Source: a virus
DNA length: 32,391 nucleotides
IMG/VR virus record: IMGVR_UViG_3300047564_005468
Span: 1 to 32,391 of that record
Strand: one strand, 5' to 3'
The stretch's first letter is position 1, and each line of letters opens with the position of its first letter. A program made the position numbers and the translations under genes. Positions 3,039 to 30,090 of the stretch are shown piece by piece. The notes under the pieces are model-generated. The model made no database searches, was not told where the DNA came from, and saw nothing but the letters and a program-made list of their open reading frames with translations.

Positions 3039-3075
3039 TTGTGCTTTCTTTACTGTCCTTACAGGATAGCACAAA
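3038..3075 (-). promoter_or_regulatory. leader hairpin abutting the VWA start codon
   Basis: On the minus strand TTTGTGCT (3075-3068) pairs perfectly with AGCACAAA (3045-3038), whose last A is the first base of the start codon. Inside the loop a second stem, TCCT/AGGA, encloses three bases (3066-3056) and holds the only AAGGA-like ribosome-binding sequence nearby. The structure could limit translation initiation. Its 5' arm overlaps the T-run of the preceding terminator by three bases. Confidence 0.4.
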
Positions 3076-3099
3076 AAAAGGAGGCCACCACACCTCCTT
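3073..3099 (-). terminator. rho-independent terminator inside the VWA gene leader
   Basis: On the minus strand AAGGAGG (3099-3093) and CCTCCTT (3084-3078) form a perfect 7-bp stem with an 8-nt loop, running into a T tract that ends at 3073. It lies downstream of the sigma70-like promoter at 3177-3205 and only about 35 nt before the VWA start. It may end read-through from the fibre genes, act as an attenuator, or do both. Confidence 0.75.
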
Positions 3100-3160
3100 A
3101 GGACACTAACTAAACCGTCCACCACCAAAGACGGGTCTGGGGTCTCAAAGTTACAAAGAA

Positions 3161-3199
3161 CCCTCAAGACTTTTACATGATAACATGAGGTCTTGAGGG
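3161..3199. promoter_or_regulatory. 10-bp inverted repeat straddling the -10 box and predicted start site
   Basis: CCCTCAAGAC (3161-3170) and GTCTTGAGGG (3190-3199) are a perfect inverted repeat. One arm lies in the promoter spacer and the other at the expected transcription start; an inner CATG/CATG pair overlaps the -10 box. The geometry suits an operator for a dimeric DNA-binding protein. As RNA it could also form a hairpin at the end of the fibre operon transcript. Confidence 0.45.
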
Positions 3200-3205
3200 T
3201 GTCAA
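3177..3205 (-). promoter_or_regulatory. sigma70-type promoter for the VWA/cobS-like pair
   Basis: On the minus strand TTGACA (3205-3200) is a perfect -35 box. A 17-bp spacer separates it from TATCAT (3182-3177), one mismatch from the -10 consensus. Transcription would start near 3170, giving a leader of about 130 nt before the VWA gene. A host-type promoter suggests early expression, in contrast to the NATAAATA octamers in front of the structural genes. Confidence 0.65.
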
Positions 3206-3264
3206 GTTGACAAGATCTCAAACCATGAGTAGGATCACTCTGTCAGGGTTCAAGACAAATTATA

Positions 3265-3762
3265 TTATCCAATTAAATGTCCTAACCATTGAGATTGCAT
3301 ACCTCTAGCTCCTCCAGTAGTATATACTTCAATATAATCATTAACTGCCATTTCTATGACTGCAGATGATGTCATGATTTCATGGTCTGGGATAGCAGCA
3401 GATTGTCCTATTGGCCATGCATTAGCTAATCCGTTAGTTATTACTCCATTTTTGTAAAAAATAACTCCAGATGCACTTACATTAGAATATAATTCTAATG
3501 TAGCTATAAAATAGTAAAGTCCAGCAGCTGGAGCAGTAAATCTTGATGTTCCAGTATTATATCCAGATCCTTTATCATAAATTCTAGCTTCAAATGTATA
3601 TTTTCCAGCAGCAACTGTTCCACCATTGCTATATTGTACTGCCCAAAATGCAATTGTGTTTAAAATACGTACTCTTCCATTAGAATCTATAAATAAAGCA
3701 TCAACTCCATTAGTATGTTGTATTTTAGTAGCTTTTAATAGATCAGCATTAATTATACTCAT
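3265..3762 (-). CDS. small tail-tip adhesin-like protein with C1q-like head (copy A)
   Basis: This 165-aa protein has an N-terminal module of about 30 residues (IQHTNG and IDSNGRV within it) shared with the five similar small genes nearby. The C-terminal part, about residues 38-165, looks like a C1q/TNF-type jelly roll: a strand with KYTFEARIYDKGSGYN, then FTAPAAGLYYF, then a hydrophobic C-terminus ending WLGHLIG. It is a close paralogue of the gene at 4502-4999; by hand count about 129 of 165 residues are identical. Differences cluster at residues 93-116. In phages such heads usually occur as trimers on fibres. It is probably a virion surface protein, inferred from fold and position. It is the last gene of the fibre block before the early-type promoter. 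The leader is A-rich with no clear Shine-Dalgarno sequence. Confidence 0.7.
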   Translation of the reverse strand: MSIINADLLKATKIQHTNGVDALFIDSNGRVRILNTIAFWAVQYSNGGTVAAGKYTFEARIYDKGSGYNTGTSRFTAPAAGLYYFIATLELYSNVSASGVIFYKNGVITNGLANAWPIGQSAAIPDHEIMTSSAVIEMAVNDYIEVYTTGGARGMQSQWLGHLIG

Positions 3763-3830
3763 GGTATTTTTATTTTAATTTGATAGAAGAGCAATTATTA
3801 CTAATTGAAAATTAAAATTAATTATTTCTA

Positions 3831-4430
3831 TTAAATACTAACTATAGCAGCTGATACTCCACTTACTGATCCACTAGGAATTGAATTATTGTTTCCATAA
3901 AAGTCTCTATGTGTCCATTGGCTTGAGGAATAATTATGCTCTACTATTCCAGTAAACCACATATTTAATCCACCAGTAATTCCTGGACTAACAGATTGTA
4001 TTGCTACCCAAGGATTACCAGCATAAGTTAAGGTTACAAAATTAAATGTAGCTGTTCCTATTTTTGCTCCTGCAGTGACAGCAGTTGATGGAAAGGTAGT
4101 TTTGCTGCAAGCTATACTAAACATTGTATTTCTTTCTCCAGCTCCTCCTCTAAATCCATACATTGTACCAATAACACGAAATGTATCATTAGTATTAGTT
4201 CTTCCTACTAACATGTATTCTGGATATGACCCAGGATCAGCCCAAATTCCAACGTATTTTTCAATTAAATATCTTGTTCCACATGCTATAATACCATTTA
4301 CTTGCAATGGATGACTAGCATCAGTGAAACCAACTCCAACTTGTCCACCAGCACTAAATGTTATTCCAGATGCACCAGTGGAATGTTGAATTGTGTTTGT
4401 TTTAATTAATGATGCGTTTATAGTACTCAT
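3831..4430 (-). CDS. small fibre-tip protein with shared N-terminal module and different head
   Basis: This 199-aa protein begins with the same N-terminal module as its neighbours (MSTINASLIKTNTIQHSTG). The module is followed by a HPLQVNG segment typical of phage fibre proteins, where 'HPLxVNG' repeats link to C-terminal domains. The remaining residues, about 60-199, are rich in Gly, Ser, Thr and aromatics and end in SGVSAAIVSI. They do not resemble the C1q-like heads on either side, so this looks like the same anchor with another head. A perfect TATAAT (minus strand, 4456-4451) lies in its leader but lacks a good -35 box. It is flanked by two near-identical paralogues, so it may have inserted between duplicated copies. 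Function beyond virion adhesion is unknown. Confidence 0.6.
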   Translation of the reverse strand: MSTINASLIKTNTIQHSTGASGITFSAGGQVGVGFTDASHPLQVNGIIACGTRYLIEKYVGIWADPGSYPEYMLVGRTNTNDTFRVIGTMYGFRGGAGERNTMFSIACSKTTFPSTAVTAGAKIGTATFNFVTLTYAGNPWVAIQSVSPGITGGLNMWFTGIVEHNYSSSQWTHRDFYGNNNSIPSGSVSGVSAAIVSI

Positions 4431-4501
4431 AACTTTTTTATTTTTAGTTTATTATAATATGTATTATTAATTAAATTGATTAGAGTTGAAGTAAAATTAT
4501 A

Positions 4502-4999
4502 TTAACCTATTAAATACCCTAACCATTGAGATTGCATACCTCTAGCTCCATTAACTGTATATACTTCAATATAATCATTAACTGCCATTTCCACAATTGC
4601 TGATGATGTCATGATTTCATGGTCTGGGATAGCACCAGATTGTCCTACTGGCCATCCATTACCAGGCACTGGAAGTACTGATCCATTTTTATAAAAAGAT
4701 ATTCCAGATGCAACTGAAAGAGAATATAATTCTAATGTAGCTATAAAATAGTAAAGTCCAGCAGCTGGAGCAGTAAATCTTGATGTTCCAGTATTATATC
4801 CAGATCCTCTGTTGTAAATTGTAGCTTCAAATGTATATTTTCCAGCAGCAACTGTTCCACCATTGCTATATTGTACTGCCCAAAATCCAACTGTATTGGG
4901 TAAAGATACTCTTCCATTAGAATCTATAGTCAAAGCAGAAGATCCATTAGGATGTTGGATTTGAGTAGTTTTTAATAAATTAGCATTAACTATACTCAT
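4502..4999 (-). CDS. small tail-tip adhesin-like protein with C1q-like head (copy B)
   Basis: This 165-aa protein is a paralogue of the gene at 3265-3762 with the same length and the same motifs (KYTFEATIYNRGSGYN, FTAPAAGLYYF, ARGMQSQWLG). Residues 39-92 differ at only three positions between the copies, while residues 93-116 are largely different. The N-terminal anchor also varies moderately. The start codon follows a usable ribosome-binding sequence, AGGATGCC, in a 13-nt spacer after the 91-aa gene, so it is probably co-transcribed from the late promoter at 5311-5322. It is likely a surface-exposed fibre tip; the variable stretch could be a binding loop. Confidence 0.7.
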   Translation of the reverse strand: MSIVNANLLKTTQIQHPNGSSALTIDSNGRVSLPNTVGFWAVQYSNGGTVAAGKYTFEATIYNRGSGYNTGTSRFTAPAAGLYYFIATLELYSLSVASGISFYKNGSVLPVPGNGWPVGQSGAIPDHEIMTSSAIVEMAVNDYIEVYTVNGARGMQSQWLGYLIG

Positions 5000-5012
5000 G
5001 GCATCCTATTTT

Positions 5013-5288
5013 TTAATTTGCTTGGGAAATGGTTGCTGCTAATTGAATATCAAATTCATCCTGCATTTCTTTTCCTGATTTAATGGGGGCATTAATAACA
5101 ATATTTTCCTTTGATCCAGAAATAACACCACCCTCTGTGGTGACTCTTTCCAGCTCTTTTGCTACAATTTCTTCAATGGCTACCCTACATCTTTCTGAAA
5201 TTGTAGATTGAATCCATTCTTGAGGATCATAAGTAACATGTGCCAAAGCTTTGTCTTCTGCAGCATTTAATACGACTGTGTATTCCAT
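5013..5288 (-). CDS. conserved small phage protein of unknown function
   Basis: This 91-aa protein is mostly alpha-helical by composition. It has an acidic, soluble N-terminal half (SERCRVAIEEIVAKELERV) and no signal peptide or membrane segment. Similar short proteins occur among tail-fibre genes of T4-like cyanophages, but I know of no assigned function. It is embedded among six adhesin-like genes without sharing their N-terminal module, so it may be an assembly chaperone for the fibre tips; this is a guess from position. A doubled late octamer lies 22 nt upstream. Confidence 0.65.
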   Translation of the reverse strand: MEYTVVLNAAEDKALAHVTYDPQEWIQSTISERCRVAIEEIVAKELERVTTEGGVISGSKENIVINAPIKSGKEMQDEFDIQLAATISQAN

Positions 5289-5310
5289 AATTATTTTATA
5301 ATAACATTTC

Positions 5311-5322
5311 TATTTATTTATC
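5311..5322 (-). promoter_or_regulatory. tandem T4-type late promoter octamers
   Basis: The minus strand reads GATAAATAAATA, which contains two overlapping NATAAATA octamers (5322-5315 and 5318-5311). The T4 late consensus is TATAAATA, read by the gp55 sigma factor. The first octamer contains the TAA stop of the upstream gene, and the next start codon is 22 nt beyond the second. Confidence 0.6.
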
Positions 5323-5836
5323 CATAATACCATATTGATAAGTGAGAATGCTCTCTACCATACACATTGGCATTAGTAGTAATTATTCTTGGTTGCAATT
5401 GATCATTTGCAGCACAATCTATTGCAAATGTATAACTATTTACAAAATATAAGTTAAATCCATTTGTATTTGAATGAATTCCTCTTGCTGTTACATTAAC
5501 GCCGTTTTTATAAACATAAAGATGGCAAACTCCTCCGCTAGCCCCCATAAGAGCACTTGGGCAAATTAAATAAACTCCTGCTAATGGGCATGTAAAAATT
5601 CCAGTGCTAGTATTATAGTGCCCACCTTTATTTTCTGATGCTATATTATAAGTATATGCTACTGGGGTAGTTCCAAAGTTTTCCCAAGTTTCTGATCCAA
5701 TGTCTCGCCATCCATAAAAAAATGGATTTTCATTTACTGACATCATTCCATTTTGATTTATTAAAATGGAGGGATTTGATGCAGATTCAAATGAAATTTC
5801 TTGAGTTATAATGTCAGATGTAATTAATGTGCTCAT
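5318..5836 (-). CDS. fibre-tip protein with C1q-like head
   Basis: This 172-aa protein has an N-terminal module in the pattern of its neighbours, though diverged (MSTLITSDIITQEISF). A C1q-like head starts near residue 38: FYGWRDIGSETWENFGTTP, then GIFTCPLAGVYLI and LYVYKNGVNVTARGIHSN, ending HLSIWYYG. The GxFxCPxxGxY core and the IW strand near the C-terminus are shared with the genes at 5846-6361 and 6367-6876. A Shine-Dalgarno-like GAGGAAAA precedes the start. It is presumably a trimeric tip or decoration of a tail fibre binding the cell surface. Its stop codon is part of the late promoter for the next gene. Confidence 0.7.
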   Translation of the reverse strand: MSTLITSDIITQEISFESASNPSILINQNGMMSVNENPFFYGWRDIGSETWENFGTTPVAYTYNIASENKGGHYNTSTGIFTCPLAGVYLICPSALMGASGGVCHLYVYKNGVNVTARGIHSNTNGFNLYFVNSYTFAIDCAANDQLQPRIITTNANVYGREHSHLSIWYYG

Positions 5837-5845
5837 AAATTTTCC

Positions 5846-6361
5846 TCAACTAGTCAACCAAATTGAACAATGAGCATATGCTTCAGCATAAATTGTTGCT
5901 GCTCCAGTTTGAGCTCTAATTTGTAATCTATCTTGTTCTTTGCATCTTATCATAAAAATTGTAGATGAATGAGTCCAATTATTATTGCCAAGTGTATTTG
6001 AATGGACTCCTCTTGCAGTTACATTTATGTCATTAAGATATACATATAAAGTTGCAGAATTTCCTCCCTGACCAGTTAATGCTCCAGGACAAACCCCATA
6101 TACTCCTTCTACTGGGCAGGTAAATGTTCCAGTAGAAGGGTTATAACAATTTCCCCTATTAGTTACTGGAACATTGTAATTGTAAACTGCTGGAGTTGCT
6201 CCATAGTTTTCCCAAGTTGCTCCAGCAGACCTATACCCATAAAAAGCTGGTTGATTTGGAGCAACAGTCCTCCCAGAAGAGTCTAGAGTTATAGCGCTTG
6301 GAGAAAGAATTGAAGGTCTTATAGTATTTGTTCTTATTGTTGAAGCTATTAGTGTACTCAT
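5846..6361 (-). CDS. fibre-tip protein with C1q-like head
   Basis: This 171-aa member of the same family starts MSTLIASTIRTNTIRP and shares the LDSSGR segment of the N-terminal module. The head has FYGYRSAGATWENYGATP, GTFTCPVEGVYGV, LYVYLNDINVTARGVHSN and a C-terminal HCSIWLTS. Between these conserved strands the sequence differs strongly from the paralogues, with several Cys residues that differ between copies. It is 5 nt downstream of one paralogue and 9 nt upstream of another, so the three are clearly co-transcribed. A role in host adhesion is inferred from the fold and neighbours. Confidence 0.7.
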   Translation of the reverse strand: MSTLIASTIRTNTIRPSILSPSAITLDSSGRTVAPNQPAFYGYRSAGATWENYGATPAVYNYNVPVTNRGNCYNPSTGTFTCPVEGVYGVCPGALTGQGGNSATLYVYLNDINVTARGVHSNTLGNNNWTHSSTIFMIRCKEQDRLQIRAQTGAATIYAEAYAHCSIWLTS

Positions 6362-6366
6362 ATTTT

Positions 6367-6876
6367 TTACCCCTGAAACCAGATTGAGCAGTGAGCATGT
6401 TCTTTTCCGTAAATTGTTGCATTTCCTGTTACTACTCTCATAGCTAGTTGATCATTGACTGAACAATTAAAGGCAAAAACTTGAGAGTTTACTTTCCAAT
6501 AATTTCCTACATTATGATGAATACTATTAGCAGTTTGATTTATTCCATTTTTATAAACATACATGTAAGAATAACTTGCAGTATTTCCTCCCAAATATCC
6601 ACAGTGAATAAGGTAAACTCCTGCTAATGGACATGTAAATACTCCAGTTCCTGTATTATAATGGTTTCCTCTGTTTACTTGGGCAAGATTATAGTTATAA
6701 ACTACTGGAGTAGTTCCAAAGTTTTCCCAAGATTCTGATCCAATGTCTCGCCATCCATAAAACACAGGTAAATTTGGTCTTCTTACTCTATTAGCACTAT
6801 CAAAGGTTAAAGCTATAGCTCCAGAAGAGTGACTTATATTAGTACATTTTAATTTATTAGTGTTTACTGTGCTCAT
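6367..6876 (-). CDS. fibre-tip protein with C1q-like head
   Basis: This 169-aa protein is first in the cassette of small adhesin-like genes. The N-terminal module reads MSTVNTNKLKCTNISHSSG and is followed by LTFDSANRV. The C1q-like head contains FYGWRDIGSESWENFGTTP, GVFTCPLAGVYLI, MYVYKNGINQTANSIHHN and ends HCSIWFQG. It is closest to the protein at 5318-5836: the first head strand differs by a single residue (T/S) over 19. A late octamer CATAAATA lies 40 nt upstream of the start. Confidence 0.7.
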   Translation of the reverse strand: MSTVNTNKLKCTNISHSSGAIALTFDSANRVRRPNLPVFYGWRDIGSESWENFGTTPVVYNYNLAQVNRGNHYNTGTGVFTCPLAGVYLIHCGYLGGNTASYSYMYVYKNGINQTANSIHHNVGNYWKVNSQVFAFNCSVNDQLAMRVVTGNATIYGKEHAHCSIWFQG

Positions 6877-6916: not shown

Positions 6917-6924
6917 TATTTATG
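6917..6924 (-). promoter_or_regulatory. T4-type late promoter octamer CATAAATA
   Basis: CATAAATA on the minus strand includes the TAA stop of the preceding gene and lies 40 nt before the first C1q-like gene. One base differs from the T4 late consensus, at the position that also varies in the other copies in this window. Confidence 0.5.
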
Positions 6925-7609
6925 TCACTGAGATTCTTCTTCTTAATGGTGCAAGTGCCAAAGTAATTCTTGCAGTCTCTTCAGATGCAACTTGAGTGAC
7001 TGCAGTTGTACCAGTAGATCCTGCTGTTGCTTTTAATCCAGTGAATACACCAAGTCCACCACCATCTTGCTGAGCTGTGGTTCCATCAATTCTTTCAGTA
7101 AGACTTGTTAGGTTTGCATTTGTTGGGTTACTGAATACTGCAGTAGAGTTAAGGTCATAGTCGGTTGCAACTGCAATAATAATCATACATTCAGGAACAG
7201 TTGTTGTTACTGCAGAACCAGTAACTGTAGTAGCTGCTGTAGCAGTTCCTCCAGCATTGGCATTAAAAGGATTTACTCTATCAACTCCTCTAATAACCAT
7301 AGATCCAACAGCATTGTGATCTCCAGAGTCACCAGTTACATAAGTAGTTTCTGTACCATCAGCAAACTTGTAAAATATAGTTAATCTTACTGCATTAGCA
7401 GCACCAGCAGTACCTGTACCTTGAGGACTACTAGGTACTGCAGTATATCCAGTAACTGCAGTAAATACTTGGTTTGCGGATTCAAGAAAAATTAAAATTA
7501 AATCTCCCTCTTCGGAGATACCACTGGTTCCCCCAATAGTATGAGTAATGGAGCCTGCAGCACCTTGCATTGCTCCAACTCCTCTAATTTCAGGATAATG
7601 TGCTGCCAT
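6920..7609 (-). CDS. putative virion structural protein, beta-sandwich type
   Basis: This 229-aa protein is rich in Thr, Ala, Gly and Val (TVTGSAVTTTVPE, GSTGTTAVTQV) with alternating hydrophobic and polar residues, as expected for a beta-sandwich. The pattern of EEGDLILIFLES near the N-terminus and ARITLALAPL at the C-terminus recalls a domain common in phage and cyanobacterial surface proteins; I cannot name it. I start it at 7609 (MAAHYPEI): there the ATG overlaps the TAA of the upstream 53-codon gene as TAATG, a translational coupling signal. An in-frame Met at 7627 is less likely. It lies between collagen-like and C1q-like genes, so a fibre or decoration role is plausible. Confidence 0.55.
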   Translation of the reverse strand: MAAHYPEIRGVGAMQGAAGSITHTIGGTSGISEEGDLILIFLESANQVFTAVTGYTAVPSSPQGTGTAGAANAVRLTIFYKFADGTETTYVTGDSGDHNAVGSMVIRGVDRVNPFNANAGGTATAATTVTGSAVTTTVPECMIIIAVATDYDLNSTAVFSNPTNANLTSLTERIDGTTAQQDGGGLGVFTGLKATAGSTGTTAVTQVASEETARITLALAPLRRRISVT

Positions 7610-7770
7610 TAGGGCCAAGTCCTCCAAGAAACTACATTTCCAGTCATTTCAATATCAACAGGGTCATTTTCAACTCCTTGCATCCATATATCTCCAGTCC
7701 AATATCCAATCTTTTCTTCGCCACTATCCAAAATAGCAACAACATTTAACCAAAGAGGGGGATATTCCAT
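7609..7770 (-). CDS. 53-aa DUF551-like small protein
   Basis: This short gene starts MEYPPLWLNVVAILDSGEE, continues with GYWTGDIWM and ends GNVVSWRTWP. The order W-x-x-V, then YW-x-G-x-x-W, then a final V-x-W-x-x-x-P matches the small DUF551 family of phage and bacterial proteins of unknown function. The gene fills the space between the collagen-like gene (stop at 7793) and the next gene, which it overlaps by one base (TAATG). Tight packing, the family pattern and the coupling support a real gene despite the weak ribosome-binding site. No function is known. Confidence 0.6.
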   Translation of the reverse strand: MEYPPLWLNVVAILDSGEEKIGYWTGDIWMQGVENDPVDIEMTGNVVSWRTWP

Positions 7771-7792: not shown

Positions 7793-10700
7793 TTAGAATA
7801 CAAGTGTTGCTCCTAGCTCTTGTGGAACTCCAGAAGTTGCTGTTACAGATAACCAAATATAGTTTCCAGAAGGAACTGTTGCATTAGTGAATGTTGTTGT
7901 ATTAGTCACTGTATTTACTGAGCTGGTTGTAATTGAAACAATAAGAGTTCCTGCTGCAGATAAATCTGTACCATATCTAAGATCATATGTGACACTAGGA
8001 GTTGTGGTTCCTGCAATTACTGAGTATACATTTGTAAGTGTTATTGAAGATGAAGTATAGAAAATAGGAACTTTGTTATCAGAAGTAGAGGGACTTAGTA
8101 ATGTTATAGATTTTGGTGCTGGAGATCCAGTATCCCCTTGTGCACCTTGAGGACCAGATCCTTGTGCACCTTGGGGACCAAATTCACCTTGTGCACCTTG
8201 AGGTCCCTGGAATCCCTGGAATCCTTGAGCACCTTGGGGTCCTTGGAATCCTTGATTTCCTTGAACACCTTGAGGTCCTTGGAATCCTTGATTTCCTTGA
8301 ACACCTTGAGGTCCTTGGAATCCTACATCTCCTTGATTTCCTTGTGCACCTTGATCTCCTTGTGCGCCTTGAGGTCCTTGGGATCCAGTATCTCCTTGGT
8401 TTCCTTGATTGCCTTGATTTCCTTGATTGCCTTGGAATCCTTGAGCACCTTGAGGTCCCTGAAATCCTTGATTTCCCTGAGATCCTTGTGGTCCCTGGAA
8501 TCCTTGATTGCCTTGTGCACCTTGAGGTCCCTGGAATCCTTGATTTCCCTGAGATCCTTGAGGTCCCTGGAATCCTTGATTTCCCTGAGATCCTTGTGGT
8601 CCCTGGAATCCTTGATTTCCTTGAGCACCTTGTGGTCCCTGGAATCCTTGATTTCCTTGAGCACCTTGAGGTCCTTGGAATCCTTGGAATCCTTGAGCAC
8701 CTTGAGGTCCTTGTGGTCCTCTGAATCCTTGAGGACCTTGGAATCCCTGGAATCCTTGTGTACCTTGAGGTCCCTGGAATCCTTGTGCACCTTGTGGACC
8801 TTGGAATCCCTGGAATCCTTGAGATCCCTGAGGTCCTTGGAATCCTTGGTTTCCTTGATTGCCCTGGTTTCCTTGATTTCCTTGAGATCCTTGAGGACCC
8901 TGGAATCCTTGATTTCCCTGAGATCCTTGTGGTCCCTGAAATCCCTGGAATCCTTGAGATCCTTGAGGTCCCTGGAATCCTTGATTTCCTTGATTGCCCT
9001 GATTTCCTTGATTTCCTTGATCTCCTTGTGCTCCTTGTGGACCTTGGAATCCTTGGAACCCTTGTGCGCCTTGAGGTCCTTGAAATCCCTGGAATCCTTG
9101 AGCTCCCTGAGGACCTTGGAATCCCTGAAATCCCTGAGCTCCTTGAGGTCCTTGGAATCCTTGATTTCCTTGATTGCCCTGATTTCCCTGGAATCCTTGT
9201 GATCCTTGAGGACCTTGGAATCCCTGGAATCCCTGGAATCCTTGGAAACCTTGAGGTCCCTGGAATCCTACAGAACCTTGAGGTCCCTGGAATCCCTGGA
9301 ATCCTTGTGCTCCTTGAGGTCCTTGGAATCCTGTATCTCCTCTAATTTGACCAACATTATCCCAATCCGTTCCAGTATAAACCCAAAGATCACCACTAGT
9401 TTCTTCAATAACTCCATCCCCAGTTCCTGGAGGATACCAAGGAAATCCAGTATCATCAGCAGTTAATGTTGTATGTGGTTCTGATGTAGTAACAGTAGTA
9501 ACAACGCCAACAATTGTTACTGATGTGCCAGTATCACCTTGATTTCCTTGTGCACCTTGAGGTCCTTGTAGACCTTGAGGACCTTGAAATCCTATAGAAC
9601 CTTGTGGTCCTTGGAAACCCTGGAATCCTTGAACTCCTTGAGGACCCTGGAATCCTTGGAACCCCTGAAATCCTTGTGGACCTAATAATCCCTGGAATCC
9701 TTGAGTTCCCTGAGGTCCTTGGAATCCCTGGAATCCTTGAGATCCTTGAGGTCCCTGGAATCCCTGGAATCCTTGAGATCCTTGAGGTCCCTGGAATCCC
9801 TGGAATCCTTGAGATCCTTGTGGACCCTGGAATCCTTGGAATCCTTGTGGTCCTTGTGGTCCTCTAAAACCTTGATTTCCTTGTGCACCTTGAGGTCCTT
9901 GGAATCCCTGGAATCCTTGTGCTCCTTGTGGACCCTGGAATCCTTGGAATCCTTGTGCTCCTTGTGGACCCTGGAATCCTTGGAATCCTTGTGCTCCTTG
10001 TGGACCCTGGAATCCTTGATTTCCTTGATTTCCCTGGAATCCTTGATTTCCTTGTGCACCTTGTGGACCTTGGAATCCTTGATTTCCTTGTGCACCTTGA
10101 GGACCTTGGAACCCTTGATTGCCTTGGTTCCCTTGATTGCCTTGATTTCCTTGTTCTCCTTGATTTCCTTGATTTCCTTGAAATCCTTGTTCTCCTTGGA
10201 ATCCCTGAAATCCTTGAACTCCCTGAGGTCCTTGGAATCCTTGATTTCCTTGAGCACCTTGAGGTCCTTGGAATCCCTGGAATCCTTGTGGTCCTTGTGG
10301 TCCTCTAAAACCTTGATTTCCTTGAGCTCCTTGAGGTCCCTGGAATCCCTGGAATCCTTGTGCTCCTTGTGGACCCTGGAATCCTTGATTTCCTTGATTG
10401 CCCTGAGCACCTTGAGGTCCCTGGAATCCTTGATTTCCTTGATTTCCCTGAACACCTTGAGGACCTTGAATGCCTTGAGGTCCTTGTGGTCCCCTAAAAC
10501 CTTGATTTCCTTGAACTCCTTGTGGTCCTTGTGGTCCTCTAAAACCTTGAGTTCCTTGTGGTCCTTGGAATCCCTGAAATCCTTGTGATCCTTGAGGACC
10601 TTGGAATCCCTGGAAACCTTGTGCTCCCTGAGGTCCTTGGAATCCTTGGAATCCTTGAACACCTTGAGGTCCCTGAACTCCTTGAGGTCCTTGAGGTCCT

Positions 10701-11185
10701 CTAAATCCTTGGTTGCCCTGATTTCCCTGAAATCCTTGAACCCCCTGAGGTCCCTGGAATCCCTGATTTCCTTGAGGTCCCTGGAATCCTTGGAATCCTT
10801 GAACTCCTTGAGGTCCCCTATCTCCACCTTCTAGAAAAATAGTTCCTATTCCAGAAGAAACAGTTACAGTAGATATGCCACTTCCTCTAAAATCTAATAC
10901 TGTAGCTCCATATCCTACATTTCCCCCAACAGTATTGATTCCAATTCCAGAAATAGATACTCCCCAATCAGTATTTCCATTACTATCTAATAATTGTAAT
11001 ACTTGCCCAGGAGATCCTAAATTATCTGGTAAAGTTACTGTATAACCAACACCTACAATGTCTGGAGACTTTATATCTACATATCCAGATTCAATTCCAT
11101 CATGAAATCTTACTTTAGATCCAGTAGATCCAACTCCTATAACTTCTGCATTTTTTAGAATTTGAACTCTTGATAGTTCTGCCAT
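7793..11185 (-). CDS. giant collagen-like fibre protein (Gly-X-Gln repeats), 1130 aa
   Basis: Residues 1 to about 121 are a beta-rich head resembling fibre N-termini ([32 protein letters not shown]). Collagen-like Gly-X-Y triplets then run from about 122 to 1020, with one break near 548-617. The Y position is almost always Gln, and X is mostly Pro, Phe, Asn, Ala, Ser or Val, giving [13 protein letters not shown]-type motifs. The break contains [14 protein letters not shown] and [17 protein letters not shown], a globular module also present in the other giant collagen-like protein. The C-terminal 110 residues form a non-collagenous beta domain ([19 protein letters not shown]) that could nucleate trimers. 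It is probably a trimeric stalk or fibre. An AAGGAGG ribosome-binding site encoded in the end of the upstream gene precedes the start by 12 nt. Confidence 0.8.
8125..9345 (-). repeat. collagen-type coding repeat, C-terminal block
   Basis: Nine-base triplet repeats and their 27-, 36- and 45-bp multiples code for Gly-X-Gln. The near-uniform text (variants of CAAGGATTCCAAGG on the coding strand) creates long open frames on both strands that are not genes. It is prone to slippage and to assembly error. Confidence 0.85.
9530..10822 (-). repeat. collagen-type coding repeat, N-terminal block with perfect 36-bp tandem copies
   Basis: The block codes for Gly-X-Gln triplets. At 9915-9950, 9951-9986 and 9987-10017 the same 36-bp unit (12 aa, [12 protein letters not shown]) occurs in tandem without change, the last copy being partial. 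A similar 36-bp series lies at about 9715-9835. Identity at the DNA level points to recent duplication. Confidence 0.85.
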
Positions 11186-14968: not shown

Positions 14969-17900
14969 TTAAACAATAGTCCAAGTTGCACCACTATTAA
15001 CTGTAACAGTAATTCCACTATTAATTGTGATTGGACCAACACTCATTTCATTGTATGTTGTTGTTACTGTGTAGTTTGCAGCAATTGTAGGAATATTTCT
15101 AAAGAATGGAGTGCTGGTAAGAGTGAATCTACCTCCAACTGATAGCTCACCTGTTCCTGGGTTATAAGATAATGCAGGAGCAGTTGATCTAATTCTAGGA
15201 GTAGCATTAACCCCTGCACTATCAACAAATATTGGATAGTAAGTAGCACTACCTGTAGTATTAGTAGCATTTACTACTGTAGATGGTCCAGTTAATCCTT
15301 GGAATCCTTGGGCACCTTGAGGACCTTGTAATCCTTGGGTTCCATTAGTTCCTTGTGTTCCATTAACACCTTGGAATCCTTGATTTCCTTGGTTGCCTTG
15401 GTTGCCTTGGAATCCTTGAGCCCCCTGAGGTCCTCTTGCACCCTGAGGTCCAATAGCACCAGGAGCTCCCTGAGTTCCTCCAGATCCTGGAGAACCTTGT
15501 GCACCTTGAGGTCCTACTGCACCTTGAGGTCCTTGTCCTCCTTGAACACCTTGAGGTCCTCTAAATCCTTGGTTGCCCTGATTTCCTTGGAAACCTTGTA
15601 CACCTTGAGGTCCTTGTAATCCTTGAGGTCCTATGACACCTTGGAAACCTTGAGCTCCCTGTGGACCCTGAACACCTTGAGGTCCTCTGACACCTTGATT
15701 GCCTTGAGATCCTTGTGGTCCTGTTCCTTGGTTGCCTTGATTGCCTTGGAATCCTTGAGCACCTTGAGGTCCAATTAATCCTTGGAATCCTTGAGGACCT
15801 TGTACACCTTGAGGTCCTCTAGCTCCTTGATTTCCTTGGTTTCCTTGGTTGCCTTGGAAACCTTGTACACCTTGAGGACCTTGGAATCCTTGGAATCCTT
15901 GAGCACCTTGAGATCCTTGAGGTCCTTGTAATCCTTGTGGACCAAGAATTTTTCCTACATTATCATAAGTGGCACCATTACAAACATAAAGATTACCATC
16001 TGCTTGAACAACATAAGCATCACCTATTGTAGTTCCATTACATACTGGAAGATTTCCTACTGTTGCAACAGTTCCTTTAATATCAAGTGCTGTTCCTGCA
16101 GGTCCCTGAGGTCCTTGGAATCCTTGAGGACCTTGAACACCTTGAGGTCCTCTAAATCCTTGATTTCCTTGGTTTCCTTGGAATCCTTGAGTTCCCTGAG
16201 GTCCTTGGAATCCTTGAGCACCCTGAGGTCCTCTTGGTCCCTGGTTTCCTTGGTTTCCTTGGTTTCCTTGTGATCCTTGAGGACCTTGGAAACCTTGTGG
16301 TCCTTGTGAACCTTGAAATCCTTGATTTCCTTGGTTTCCTTGGAATCCTTGTACGCCTTGAGGCCCCTGGAATCCTTGAGGTCCTTGAGGACCAACACCA
16401 CCTTTAAATCCTTGGTTGCCTTGAGCACCTTGAGGTCCTTGAGATCCTATTCCACCAGATCCACCCTGAGGACCTGCAATACCTTGTGGTCCTTGTACTC
16501 CTTGTGGTCCTCTAACTCCTTGGTTGCCTTGATTTCCTTGAGCACCTTGAGGTCCTTGAACACCTTGAGGTCCTGTAAATCCTTGGTTTCCTTGGAATCC
16601 TTGGAATCCTTGAGTTCCTTGTGGTCCCTGGAATCCTTGATTACCTTGATTACCTTGGTTTCCCTGAGTACCTTGAGTTCCTTGAGGTCCTTGTAAACCT
16701 TGAGGTCCTTGTAAACCTTGAGGTCCTACATTTCCTTGGGAACCTTGAGGTCCTTGGAATCCCTGATTACCTTGATTGCCTTGATTGCCTTGATTGCCTT
16801 GAGCACCTTGAGGTCCTCTTACTCCATTTTCTCCTTGGAATCCTTGAGATCCTTGATTTCCTTGGAACCCTTGAGGTCCTTGAGGTCCAAATCCTTGTGG
16901 TCCTTGTAAACCTTGTGGTCCTTGAGGTCCTCTAAATCCTTGGTTTCCTTGATTGCCTTGGTTTCCTTGATTTCCTTGAGCACCCTGAGGTCCCTGGAAT
17001 CCTTGGAATCCTTGAGCACCTTGAGGTCCTCTAACTCCTTGATTGCCTTGATTTCCCTGAGGTCCTTGGAATCCTTGAGTTCCTTGGAATCCTTGAGGAC
17101 CTTGTACCCCCTGAGGTCCTTGAGGTCCAACAAATCCATCACTGCCTTGAATTCCTGCTATTCCTTGGAATCCTTGAGTTCCTTGAGGTCCTATTGTGCC
17201 TTGATTTCCTTGGAATCCTTGAGCTCCTTGAGGACCTTGGAACCCCTGAGCTCCTTGAGGACCTTGGAATCCCTGAGCTCCTTGAGGACCTTGGAATCCT
17301 TGAGGTCCCTGCAAACCTTGAGGTCCTTGGAAGCCTTGATTTCCTTGTGTTCCTTGTGAACCTTGAGGTCCTCTAAATCCTTGGAATCCTTGCGATCCCT
17401 GAGGTCCCTGGAATCCTTGTGTTCCTTGGAATCCTTGAACACCTTGGGGACCTTGCAATCCTTGTGGTCCTTGGGGTCCTCTAAATCCTTGATTTCCTTG
17501 ATTTCCTTGATTTCCTTGAGCACCTTGAGGTCCTTGGAATCCTGTATCTCCTCTAATTTGACCAACATCATCCCAGTCAGACCCATTATAAACCCAAAGA
17601 TTTCCAGTATCTAGAGCAATAACTCCATCTCCAGCAGTAGGAGGATACCAAGGAAATACAGTATCATCAGCAGTTAATGTTGTATGTGGAGAAGAAGTAG
17701 TGACTGATGGAACTGATCCTACAATGCTAATAGATGTTCCAGTGTTTCCTTGGAATCCTTGAGTTCCCTGTGGTCCTTGAACTCCTTGAGGTCCTGTAGA
17801 TCCTTGATTTCCTTGAAAACCTTGAACACCTTGAGGTCCCTGAAATCCTTGGAATCCTTGAGAACCTTGAGGACCTTGTAATCCTTGAGGTCCTTGTAAT

Positions 17901-18856
17901 CCTTGGGGTCCTTGTGCCCCATCAAATCCTTGTGCTCCTTGTGGACCCTGGAATCCTTGGAAACCTTGAGTTCCCTGGAACCCTTGTGCTCCCTGAGGTC
18001 CTTGGAATCCCTGGAATCCTTGAGCTCCCTGAGGTCCTTGAGTACCTTGAGGTCCAAATCCTTGAGGACCTTGGAACCCTTGAGGTCCTTGGGGACCAAC
18101 AGAACCTTGGAATCCTTGTGATCCCTGAGGTCCTCTAAATCCTTGAAATCCTTGAGATCCTTGAGGTCCTCTGAATCCCTGAGGTCCTTGTGGTCCAATA
18201 AATCCACTAACAGAGTTCCAAGTAAATCCTGCTCCTGGACCTAATGATGTTAATACTTGAGGGAATAAACCAACATTCCCATCCTTATTTGCAATATCTC
18301 CTTTTATTCTTACTGTTGGAACTTGTATATCTAACTGATAATTAGAGTCTGGATTATTAGTTCCAATCCCCAAAGATTGTGCAGCAGGAATATAAACAAT
18401 ATTATTTGGTGCAATATCAAATGTGGTTGCTAATCCACCAAATCTTTCTGTAGTAAATCCTAAGTATCTTGGTCTAGCATCATCTGGTTCAACTACTGGT
18501 AATTTTGTATCAACTCTAATAGTTGCAACTCCAACACCAGCAGATGCAAATCCTACAACACTAACACTAGCCCCAACAAAATCTAAAATTGTAATGGAGT
18601 TGGCTACTCCAACTACAGTCCCTTCATCCTTTACTGTAAATCCTAGAGGTAGAGTTTCTAGAGGAATCCAAAATCTTTCACCTGGATAATCTGGAATAGA
18701 AATTAAAAAATATCTATCTCCAACTGGAATAGATCCAGAATATGGAGGATCTCCTAAATTAGGTTCTGTCTGATTTAATCCAAGGTACTGATATCTATCA
18801 GAAGTTAACCTAGATTGTGGAGTTCTTATTACTCTGCGACTAAGATACTTTGCCAT
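14969..18856 (-). CDS. giant collagen-like fibre protein (Gly-X-Gln repeats), 1295 aa
   Basis: Residues 1 to about 218 are non-collagenous. They include GSIPVGDRYFLISIPDYPGE and AAQSLGIGTNNPDSNYQLDI, the latter like fibre segments that precede beta-helices. Gly-X-Gln triplets fill about 219-1190, interrupted by two globular islands: near 370-433 (LTADDTVFPWYPPT, LWVYNGSDWDDVGQIRG) and near 918-970 (GDAYVVQADGNLYVCNGATY). The first island is homologous to the one in the 1130-aa protein. The last 105 residues end in TINSGITVTVNSGATWTIV, a C-terminal motif common on marine phage fibres. The protein is probably a long trimeric stalk; trimerisation and any hydroxylation are not visible. The start overlaps the stop of the 127-aa gene (TAATG). 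Confidence 0.8.
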   Translation of the reverse strand: MAKYLSRRVIRTPQSRLTSDRYQYLGLNQTEPNLGDPPYSGSIPVGDRYFLISIPDYPGERFWIPLETLPLGFTVKDEGTVVGVANSITILDFVGASVSVVGFASAGVGVATIRVDTKLPVVEPDDARPRYLGFTTERFGGLATTFDIAPNNIVYIPAAQSLGIGTNNPDSNYQLDIQVPTVRIKGDIANKDGNVGLFPQVLTSLGPGAGFTWNSVSGFIGPQGPQGFRGPQGSQGFQGFRGPQGSQGFQGSVGPQGPQGFQGPQGFGPQGTQGPQGAQGFQGFQGPQGAQGFQGTQGFQGFQGPQGAQGFDGAQGPQGLQGPQGLQGPQGSQGFQGFQGPQGVQGFQGNQGSTGPQGVQGPQGTQGFQGNTGTSISIVGSVPSVTTSSPHTTLTADDTVFPWYPPTAGDGVIALDTGNLWVYNGSDWDDVGQIRGDTGFQGPQGAQGNQGNQGNQGFRGPQGPQGLQGPQGVQGFQGTQGFQGPQGSQGFQGFRGPQGSQGTQGNQGFQGPQGLQGPQGFQGPQGAQGFQGPQGAQGFQGPQGAQGFQGNQGTIGPQGTQGFQGIAGIQGSDGFVGPQGPQGVQGPQGFQGTQGFQGPQGNQGNQGVRGPQGAQGFQGFQGPQGAQGNQGNQGNQGNQGFRGPQGPQGLQGPQGFGPQGPQGFQGNQGSQGFQGENGVRGPQGAQGNQGNQGNQGNQGFQGPQGSQGNVGPQGLQGPQGLQGPQGTQGTQGNQGNQGNQGFQGPQGTQGFQGFQGNQGFTGPQGVQGPQGAQGNQGNQGVRGPQGVQGPQGIAGPQGGSGGIGSQGPQGAQGNQGFKGGVGPQGPQGFQGPQGVQGFQGNQGNQGFQGSQGPQGFQGPQGSQGNQGNQGNQGPRGPQGAQGFQGPQGTQGFQGNQGNQGFRGPQGVQGPQGFQGPQGPAGTALDIKGTVATVGNLPVCNGTTIGDAYVVQADGNLYVCNGATYDNVGKILGPQGLQGPQGSQGAQGFQGFQGPQGVQGFQGNQGNQGNQGARGPQGVQGPQGFQGLIGPQGAQGFQGNQGNQGTGPQGSQGNQGVRGPQGVQGPQGAQGFQGVIGPQGLQGPQGVQGFQGNQGNQGFRGPQGVQGGQGPQGAVGPQGAQGSPGSGGTQGAPGAIGPQGARGPQGAQGFQGNQGNQGNQGFQGVNGTQGTNGTQGLQGPQGAQGFQGLTGPSTVVNATNTTGSATYYPIFVDSAGVNATPRIRSTAPALSYNPGTGELSVGGRFTLTSTPFFRNIPTIAANYTVTTTYNEMSVGPITINSGITVTVNSGATWTIV
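15290..15945 (-). repeat. collagen-type coding repeat, third block of the 1295-aa protein
   Basis: Gly-X-Gln triplets with some Gly-X-Arg and Gly-X-Pro, between the second globular island and the C-terminal domain. This block has more variety (GSPGSGGTQGAPGAIGPQG) than the others, suggesting an older, less homogenised stretch. Confidence 0.8.
16100..17555 (-). repeat. collagen-type coding repeat, central block of the 1295-aa protein
   Basis: The longest triplet block of this protein. At about 17215-17300 a 27-bp unit (9 aa, GFQGPQGAQ) occurs three times with almost no change, again indicating recent local duplication. Confidence 0.8.
17740..18205 (-). repeat. collagen-type coding repeat, N-terminal block of the 1295-aa protein
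   Basis: Gly-X-Gln triplets between the N-terminal domain and the first globular island, about 150 residues long. Confidence 0.8.
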
Positions 18857-29298: not shown

Positions 29299-30090
29299 AT
29301 GGCAATTAGCACTAACACTGAATCCTTGATTTCGTTATATCAACAAGAGATTTCTTTAAGCGAAAAACAAAAAGAACAAGTAACATACACAGAGAATGGA
29401 TTTACTGTCCCACTTCCAGATGGTGGGGAGTATAAATTATATGCAGTTCAAGAAAGTATAGATTACTTTACAAGTCCAACTCAAAAATTAGATAAAAAAA
29501 TAATTGAAATTAATAATAAAATAGTAGGATTGCAAAATACTCTTTTGCAAGTTGGATTAGCAGCAAATGCTTGTGGGTGTGGAGGACTTACTGGATTTAC
29601 TGCATCTGGATCTCCCCCTTCTGTAACTTACACCCCATTTGTTTATGGTCCAAAAACAACAGTAAATGCAGATACTGCACTTTACAGAGGATACACATAC
29701 ACTTCTCCAAATCCATTTGAAGAAATTAATGGAACATTAACAACTGGAAATGCTGGTATTGGAACCGAAAGTATATTTGGAGTATCTTTTATTGGGGATT
29801 ATTATTCAAATATTGGAGTTGCAAGAACTACACTACCAGTTTGCCCTGGAGTGACTAATTGTACTGGATATGCAACTTCAGAAACTAACTTAAATGCTCA
29901 AATAGCAACATTACAAGCAGAAAGAAATGCTTTAGCTGGAAAAGTAAATATTTTAAAAGATAGTAGAAGTGAGTTTGAAACTAAGAAATATGGACTTAAT
30001 GCATCAAAGGAAGAACTAAATGCACAAATTGCATCTAGCAATTCAATTATAAGTTTTCTTCAAGACCCTGCAAATGAACAGTGGTTGTAA
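29299..30090 (+). CDS. putative virion or assembly protein with coiled-coil ends, 263 aa
   Basis: I do not recognise a named family. Residues about 10-85 and 195-263 are rich in charged and Leu/Ile/Gln residues (QQEISLSEKQKEQV, KLDKKIIEINNKIVGLQNTL, NAQIATLQAERNALAGKV), suggesting two long coiled coils. Between them is a Gly/Thr/Pro/Tyr-rich segment with a Cys cluster NACGCGG and later PVCPGVTNC. The layout suggests a hairpin or trimeric coiled coil around a central domain. It is the only gene on the plus strand, but its late octamer shows that it is expressed with the structural genes. No clear Shine-Dalgarno sequence is present. A structural or fibre-assembly role is inferred from timing and neighbourhood only. 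Confidence 0.65.
   Translation: MAISTNTESLISLYQQEISLSEKQKEQVTYTENGFTVPLPDGGEYKLYAVQESIDYFTSPTQKLDKKIIEINNKIVGLQNTLLQVGLAANACGCGGLTGFTASGSPPSVTYTPFVYGPKTTVNADTALYRGYTYTSPNPFEEINGTLTTGNAGIGTESIFGVSFIGDYYSNIGVARTTLPVCPGVTNCTGYATSETNLNAQIATLQAERNALAGKVNILKDSRSEFETKKYGLNASKEELNAQIASSNSIISFLQDPANEQWL

Follow-up and report, generated by a model that had tools for sequence, protein, structure and literature searches.

The window analysed here, the whole of IMG/VR virus record IMGVR_UViG_3300047564_005468 (32,391 nt), carries at positions 3265-6876 of its minus strand a cassette of six short fibre-like genes, which we call mini-fibres, and a small gene encoding a 91-residue protein. The cassette is flanked by large collagen-like fibre genes on one side and a peptidase gene on the other, all on the minus strand. 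The peptidase gene (true start 3038, end 879) matched 463 phage records at up to 46% identity; nearly all were Synechococcus or Prochlorococcus phages, which assigns the window to a T4-like cyanophage, or a close relative, of a poorly sampled lineage. We treat its source as a freshwater, cyanophage-like myovirus.

Genes of the cassette

An earlier reading made from the letters of the window alone (the sequence-only reading) had proposed six adjacent genes sharing one N-terminal anchor and bearing several heads. All six open reading frames are present, each intact, open and with its own start (Table 1); strict adjacency did not stand, as the gene for the 91-residue protein, which lacks the N-terminal module, lies between the third and fourth. 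This gene had been left out of the earlier gene list, and it is the one that travels with C1q heads. The direct repeats D1 and D3, both involving B2, are 87-88% identical in DNA.

Table 1. Mini-fibre genes, the small partner gene and nearby promoter-like motifs, in order along the minus strand
Feature	Position in window	Strand	Remarks
ATAAATA, late-promoter-like	6917..6923	-	47 nt before A1 start
Mini-fibre A1, 169 residues	6367..6876	-	Module about residues 1-36, C1q head about 37-169; Pfam C1q E=3.9e-8
Mini-fibre A2, 171 residues, C1q head	5846..6361	-	Pfam C1q E=1.7e-8; orthologs in L010 (65%) and L011
Mini-fibre A3, 172 residues, C1q head	5318..5836	-	Pfam C1q E=2.1e-6; N-terminal profile E=2.8e-5; L010 ortholog 77%
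Overlapping ATAAATAAATA, late-promoter-like	5311..5321	-	29-33 nt before start of 91-residue gene; overlaps A3 stop codon
91-residue all-helical protein, proposed assembly chaperone or cap for C1q fibres	5013..5288	-	Family in at least 80 viral loci
Mini-fibre B1, 165 residues, second-subfamily C1q head	4502..4999	-	Pfam C1q E=3e-6; N-terminal profile E=6e-18
Mini-fibre H, 199 residues, shared module and non-C1q head	3831..4430	-	N-terminal profile E=5.7e-9; S-SRM01 tip homology
Mini-fibre B2, 165 residues, B1 duplicate (78% amino-acid identity)	3265..3762	-	Pfam C1q E=5e-5, 24.0 bits; direct repeats D1, D3

Five C1q heads and one unrelated head

Five of the six proteins exceed the gathering score of 23.7 for Pfam C1q (PF00386), at 24.0, 27.9, 28.4, 34.0 and 35.2 bits, in agreement with the five C1q-like heads of the earlier reading. 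Its division of these heads into two subfamilies also holds: A1, A2 and A3 are mutually 47-53% identical and B1 and B2 78%, with 26-37% between the groups. The AlphaFold2 model of A1, the one mini-fibre so modelled, has a mean predicted local distance difference test score (pLDDT) of 90.5 and matches a solved C1q domain best in the PDB (4ous, E=1.2e-9, template modelling score 0.86 by target); the match spans about 137 residues and gives A1 a C1q/tumour necrosis factor-type beta jelly roll. The nearest viral match of the model is the C1q protein of Synechococcus phage S-SRM01. The model is of a single chain; the C1q heads would probably form homotrimers.

The head of H is unrelated to the others, as had been proposed: it matches no Pfam or PHROG family and is missed by the C1q profile. 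It is homologous to residues 455-634 of the 636-residue S-SRM01 fibre QPX47971 (55% identity over 175 columns; tblastn E=4e-53, H residues 25-178), the match beginning at the DSSGR linker position and, in local alignment, fading just upstream of the linker. The homology begins there, the start of H most resembles that of B1 (13 of 24 residues, the best among 523 N-termini), and the gene is flanked by B1 and B2; most simply, then, H would be the product of joining a B-type start to a head that elsewhere sits on a long fibre. Searches of viral_contigs, genome_contigs and PDB sequences yielded no relatives of the H head, leaving S-SRM01 as its only other carrier; viral_contigs likewise held no close relative of a B-type protein.

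The N-terminal module

A 34-residue profile built from relatives outside the window only, with 500 shuffles per protein and a scan of 1412 open reading frames, detected an N-terminal module in all six proteins (E = 2e-14, 4e-10, 3e-5, 6e-18, 4e-14 and, for H, 6e-9); in each case the real score was reached by none of the 500 shuffles, and among proteins of the scan without a C1q head H scored highest. The shared module of about 30 residues proposed earlier thus stands at about 36, although it is weak in A3, which lacks LT-x-D-S-x-G-R and whose module is only 15% identical to that of A1 where their heads are 60% identical. Next to the head, the module's second half (ALTIDSxGRV) is a linker that longer phage fibres commonly have as well, and IDSSGRV falls within the consensus of 52 genes that precede the 91-residue family; therefore only the first 16 residues or so could serve as an anchor. 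Fibre genes bearing other heads show weak matches to these residues (MSxLxxxxI).

The same start is found on unrelated heads, that of H and those of the C1q proteins, and to this extent the idea of a shared anchor with exchangeable heads survives. The anchor is not constant, however: the number of nonsynonymous substitutions per site (dN) was higher in the N-terminus than in the head in nine of the ten pairs of orthologs or duplicates compared (A1, A2 and A3 against their orthologs in the related contigs L010 and L011, plus B1 against B2), with a ratio of about 1.2-3.2, usually about 2-3, so that between related phages the head is the better conserved part. Among A-group paralogs the N-termini are 15-30% identical. 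Such fast change would fit a relaxed demand on a short beta segment, and it would also fit divergence that keeps paralogs from mixing within one trimer.

A small helical protein accompanies C1q heads

Searching with a two-sequence alignment of the window's 91-residue protein and its S-SRM01 homolog, we found the family in at least 80 viral loci. Of 52 non-redundant genes that precede it, 43 have a Pfam C1q match; with a C1q profile built in this analysis, 47 of 49 preceding genes are C1q genes as against 23 of 385 genes that are not followed by the family (Fisher 7e-43), and one of the two exceptions, a 1632-residue protein ending in GTFSGYLVG, is also C1q-like at its end. The same order of C1q gene, then 91-residue gene, occurs in an isolate, Limnohabitans phage DC33. 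This phage (L091, PQ492659.1) is filed under Inoviridae despite its 39 kb and tailed-phage-like fibre region, which is probably a taxonomy error.

The fibres that precede the family have many unrelated N-termini and range from 161 to about 1,500 residues, and the small partner therefore goes with the head, whatever the anchor. These loci also contain another type of head, AMEI (named for its C-terminal ending), which has a different companion: C1q heads were followed by the 91-residue family 47 times and by an XkdW-like protein once, AMEI heads by the 91-residue family never and by an XkdW-like protein 26 times (Fisher 4e-19). The contrast survives clustering, with 8 versus 13 clusters at 50% identity of the small gene and 33 versus 18 at 40% identity of the head. 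Common descent of the two small families was considered and is unsupported (hhalign probability 0.7%).

The model of the window's 91-residue protein (pLDDT 92.1) consists of four helices, at residues 9-18, 22-51, 60-66 and 72-90. The protein has no convincing Pfam match and no PHROG or PDB match, and Foldseek of the model returned nothing significant in the PDB (best E=3.4). Its gene lies directly after a fibre gene and is specific to that gene's C-terminal head, and the family shows no sequence or profile match to Tfa phrog_105, Phage_tail_APC or XkdW. In contig L010, a Tfa-type protein (phrog_105) sits between a collar-head group and the C1q group, ending the preceding fibre group. Because equivalent slots hold annotated assembly proteins and the partner is head-specific, we propose from position and specificity that the 91-residue protein may be a chaperone or cap for C1q heads. 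A search of the open-access literature turned up no account of any partner family tied specifically to C1q heads. In S-SRM01 (L007), two paralogous 84-residue proteins (MASFTERHEHKLEIIPP... and MANFTERHEHKLEIIPP...; 3271-3525 and 9870-10124) lie among genes annotated as endosialidase or tail fibre, and are possibly another small partner family.

The protein might instead be a stable structural part, such as a subunit of the tip or collar or an additional adhesin, with the C1q head as its platform. In S16-type phages gp38 is itself an adhesin, and gp38-type adhesins have glycine-rich loops; the 91-residue protein is short and all-helical and has no such loops, and it is more conserved than the heads (8 clusters at 50% versus 33 at 40%), unlike an adhesin that contacts the receptor. 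We consider this unlikely, even though the family nearly always accompanies C1q heads and the Mu Tfa and V22 gp27 chaperones have been reported to stay on their fibres (PMC10579305).

Turnover of the locus

Comparing the locus among related contigs, as the sequence-only reading had suggested, revealed gain, loss and replacement of mini-fibre genes. In contigs L010, L015 and L016 the flanking 2-oxoglutarate-Fe(II) (2OG-Fe(II)) oxygenase and Tfa-type proteins are 84-94% identical, and the peptidases of L010 and L016 98%; between these flanks, C1q proteins are at most 37% identical across contigs and the 91-residue proteins 57-71%. For L010 and L016 specifically, the flanks are 91%, 87% and 98% identical, the C1q proteins at most 35% and the 91-residue proteins 57%. 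In these three contigs DNA identity, about 70-90% up to the first C1q start codon, drops there to 28-40%; as replacement begins at the start codon, start and head leave together. The number of C1q genes between the flanks also differs, with three in L010 and one each in L015 and L016.

The oxygenase gene lies inside the fibre cassette (L010 1205-1792, L015 6467-7054, L016 178-765) and is 91-94% conserved while the adjoining head genes change, which recalls the Fe(II) oxygenases of metaviromic islands.

The window has the same three C1q genes as L010, followed by the partner gene and then B1, H and B2. The block of A1, A2, A3 and partner is also found, in another context and beside other head types, in L011/L013 (one contig) and in L012. 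Across genomes the orthologs of A1-A3 are 65-79% identical, whereas paralogs within one genome are 47-58% identical; three distinct C1q mini-fibres have therefore long been kept together, which favours display as a mixture over a store of alternatives. The A-type copies are distinct orthologs retained in three phage lineages, and their heads are under purifying selection (ratio of nonsynonymous to synonymous substitutions per site, dN/dS, about 0.14-0.40). The duplication that gave B1 and B2 is more recent: of their 36 differences, 14 lie between residues 94 and 115 and another 11 within the first 36 residues, and the heads have a dN/dS of about 0.8 (dN 0.13, dS 0.16).

The last value would fit a relaxation of constraint on the newest copies, and no tail-attachment domain is recognised in these proteins, as might be expected if the small C1q proteins were accessory products (decoration, secreted or decaying duplicates) and not virion tips. 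We regard this as improbable, given that the genes lie in a late structural region with late-promoter motifs, that they occur within the fibre cassettes of many phages and that A-group heads are under purifying selection; marine phage C1q genes have, moreover, been proposed as receptor-binding proteins (PMC3909814). Most doubtful is the idea, favoured by the sequence-only reading, of a store of alternative tips on one fibre in which one or few are displayed at once and recombination between shared N-termini swaps heads: the six do have a module in common and H resembles a B-type start joined to a foreign head, but the A-group N-termini are too diverged to act as homology tracts, every gene is open with its own start, replacement boundaries fall at start codons, the A orthologs are under constraint, a search of the locus for an invertible or repeat-mediated switch found no inverted-repeat or site-specific repeat (the direct repeats being the paralogous genes themselves), and attachment to one fibre is unsupported.

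Proposed role of the cassette

We favour, at a probability of roughly 0.68, the reading that the cassette encodes short trimeric receptor-binding fibres, probably co-displayed, that pass between phages together with an assembly partner specific to the head. The locus would then be a host-recognition island encoding six short, probably homotrimeric mini-fibres, each with a candidate docking segment of about 16 residues, a beta-structured linker of about 20 residues shared with longer fibres, and a receptor-binding head. Late in infection the mini-fibres would be made alongside the 91-residue helical protein, which may help C1q heads to fold or trimerise, or may cap them. As A1-A3 are kept with a single partner copy in several lineages, the particle probably carries a mixture. 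Evolution would proceed by replacing or adding whole mini-fibre genes: while the flanks stay constant, the C1q genes and their 91-residue partner would be swapped together as a block. Now and then the linker may be the point at which an existing start acquires a new head, H being the presumed example.

Four points weigh against this reading. The C1q profile behind the figure of 47 of 49 was trained on those same preceding genes, the Pfam count of 43 of 52 being independent of it; the loci were sampled through the 91-residue gene and many come from related freshwater phages, making the counts not fully independent; the 91-residue protein has no homology to any known chaperone detectable by sequence, profile or fold searches; and none of B1, H and B2 is immediately followed by a partner gene.

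A broader proposal, to which we give slightly better than even odds, is a head-to-partner code in which each head type brings its own unrelated small assembly protein whatever the anchor, C1q with the 91-residue family and AMEI with XkdW-like proteins, the moving unit being head gene plus partner. If true, a small hypothetical gene would predict the type of head. Genes for C1q-tipped proteins rank with the most variable that marine and freshwater phages have, and an unannotated family of small proteins found with these heads on many different anchors is a concrete candidate for their partner. The 91-residue family offers an account of what is exchanged in the turnover of host recognition and a way to annotate many hypothetical genes, and the partner may matter for producing active recombinant C1q-type phage adhesins.

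Comparison with known systems

That C1q genes occur in variable host-recognition islands of phages is already known (PMC3909814, PMC7468147), as are C1q heads on other phage-derived fibres (PMC12923769). The marine metaviromic islands described by Mizuno et al. in 2014 (PMC3909814) resemble the present locus in having a C1q head in a hypervariable host-recognition region, with an Fe(II) oxygenase, XkdW, a tail fibre assembly protein and a tail fibre as neighbours. What differs here is the presence of up to five very short C1q proteins per cassette, the 91-residue partner and exchange as a block; the relevant passages of that paper report variation and do not mention a partner gene.

In Alteromonas phages (A5/V22), a fibre and its cognate downstream chaperone are shared across families (PMC10579305). 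Such modules, like those of Mu Tfa and T4 gp37/gp38, share with the C1q genes and their partner a small, head-specific gene directly after the fibre gene and its transfer with the fibre between unrelated phages. The 91-residue family differs from them in being all-helical, with no detectable shared sequence or fold, and in the apparent use of a single copy by three mini-fibres. XkdW (PF09636) and Phage_tail_APC (PF16778) occupy the same slot after the C1q genes of HTVC100P and HMO-2011, respectively, whereas profile comparison shows no homology between the 91-residue family and the XkdW-like family. In Bacillus phage Sam46, an XkdW gene adjoins the receptor-binding fibre gene; mutations alter plaque type, and a role in tail assembly was suggested by the authors (PMC8190038).

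Two cassettes come closest. That of S-SRM01, a phage with Synechococcus KCZYC6 as its laboratory host, has a C1q fibre, QPX47974, followed by QPX47975, a homolog of the 91-residue protein (35% identical), and the H head tips its fibre QPX47971; the fibres there are long (283-636 residues), whereas the heads of the window sit on a start of about 36 residues. In HMO-2011 the cassette has many small fibre genes, one of them for a 174-residue C1q protein that shares the N-terminal module, but what comes after this C1q gene is a Phage_tail_APC gene and not a member of the 91-residue family.

Expression signals and neighbouring DNA

The motif ATAAATA, which we take to be akin to a T4-type late promoter, occurs eight times on the minus strand of the window, in six cases no more than 80 nt ahead of a gene start (binomial 2.8e-7). 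The sites before A1 and the 91-residue gene (Table 1) are consistent with late structural expression. The site at the A3 stop codon is kept at the same place in L010 and L013; it is part coding, and its conservation alone is thus weak evidence. A literature search found no cyanophage late promoter with ATAAATA.

The intergenic DNA between cassette and peptidase gene (3040-3240, minus strand) is nearly identical to L010 4150-4358, yet the peptidase proteins are 73% identical. It contains a sigma70-like TTGACA-N17-TATCAT flanked by the arms of an inverted repeat (CCCTCAAGAC/GTCTTGAGGG), as well as a terminator hairpin in which both strands of the stem have changed together (AAGGAGG/CCTCCTT versus AAGGGGG/CCCCCTT), and could be a regulated early promoter or a phage small RNA (fold z-score -2.0). 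An Rfam search around the locus, this DNA included, returned nothing.

Just before the cassette, a 229-residue protein (6920-7609) matches nothing in Pfam or PHROGs and is without relatives in the loci that were fetched; its gene is preceded by a 53-residue open reading frame at 7609-7770. Beyond lie the genes of two very large collagen-like proteins of 1130 and 1295 residues (7793-11185 and 14969-18856) with GPQGxQGFQG repeats, which are accompanied by long spurious open reading frames on the opposite strand and in other frames. At 29299-30090, a gene for a 263-residue protein runs on the plus strand within the otherwise minus-strand structural block.

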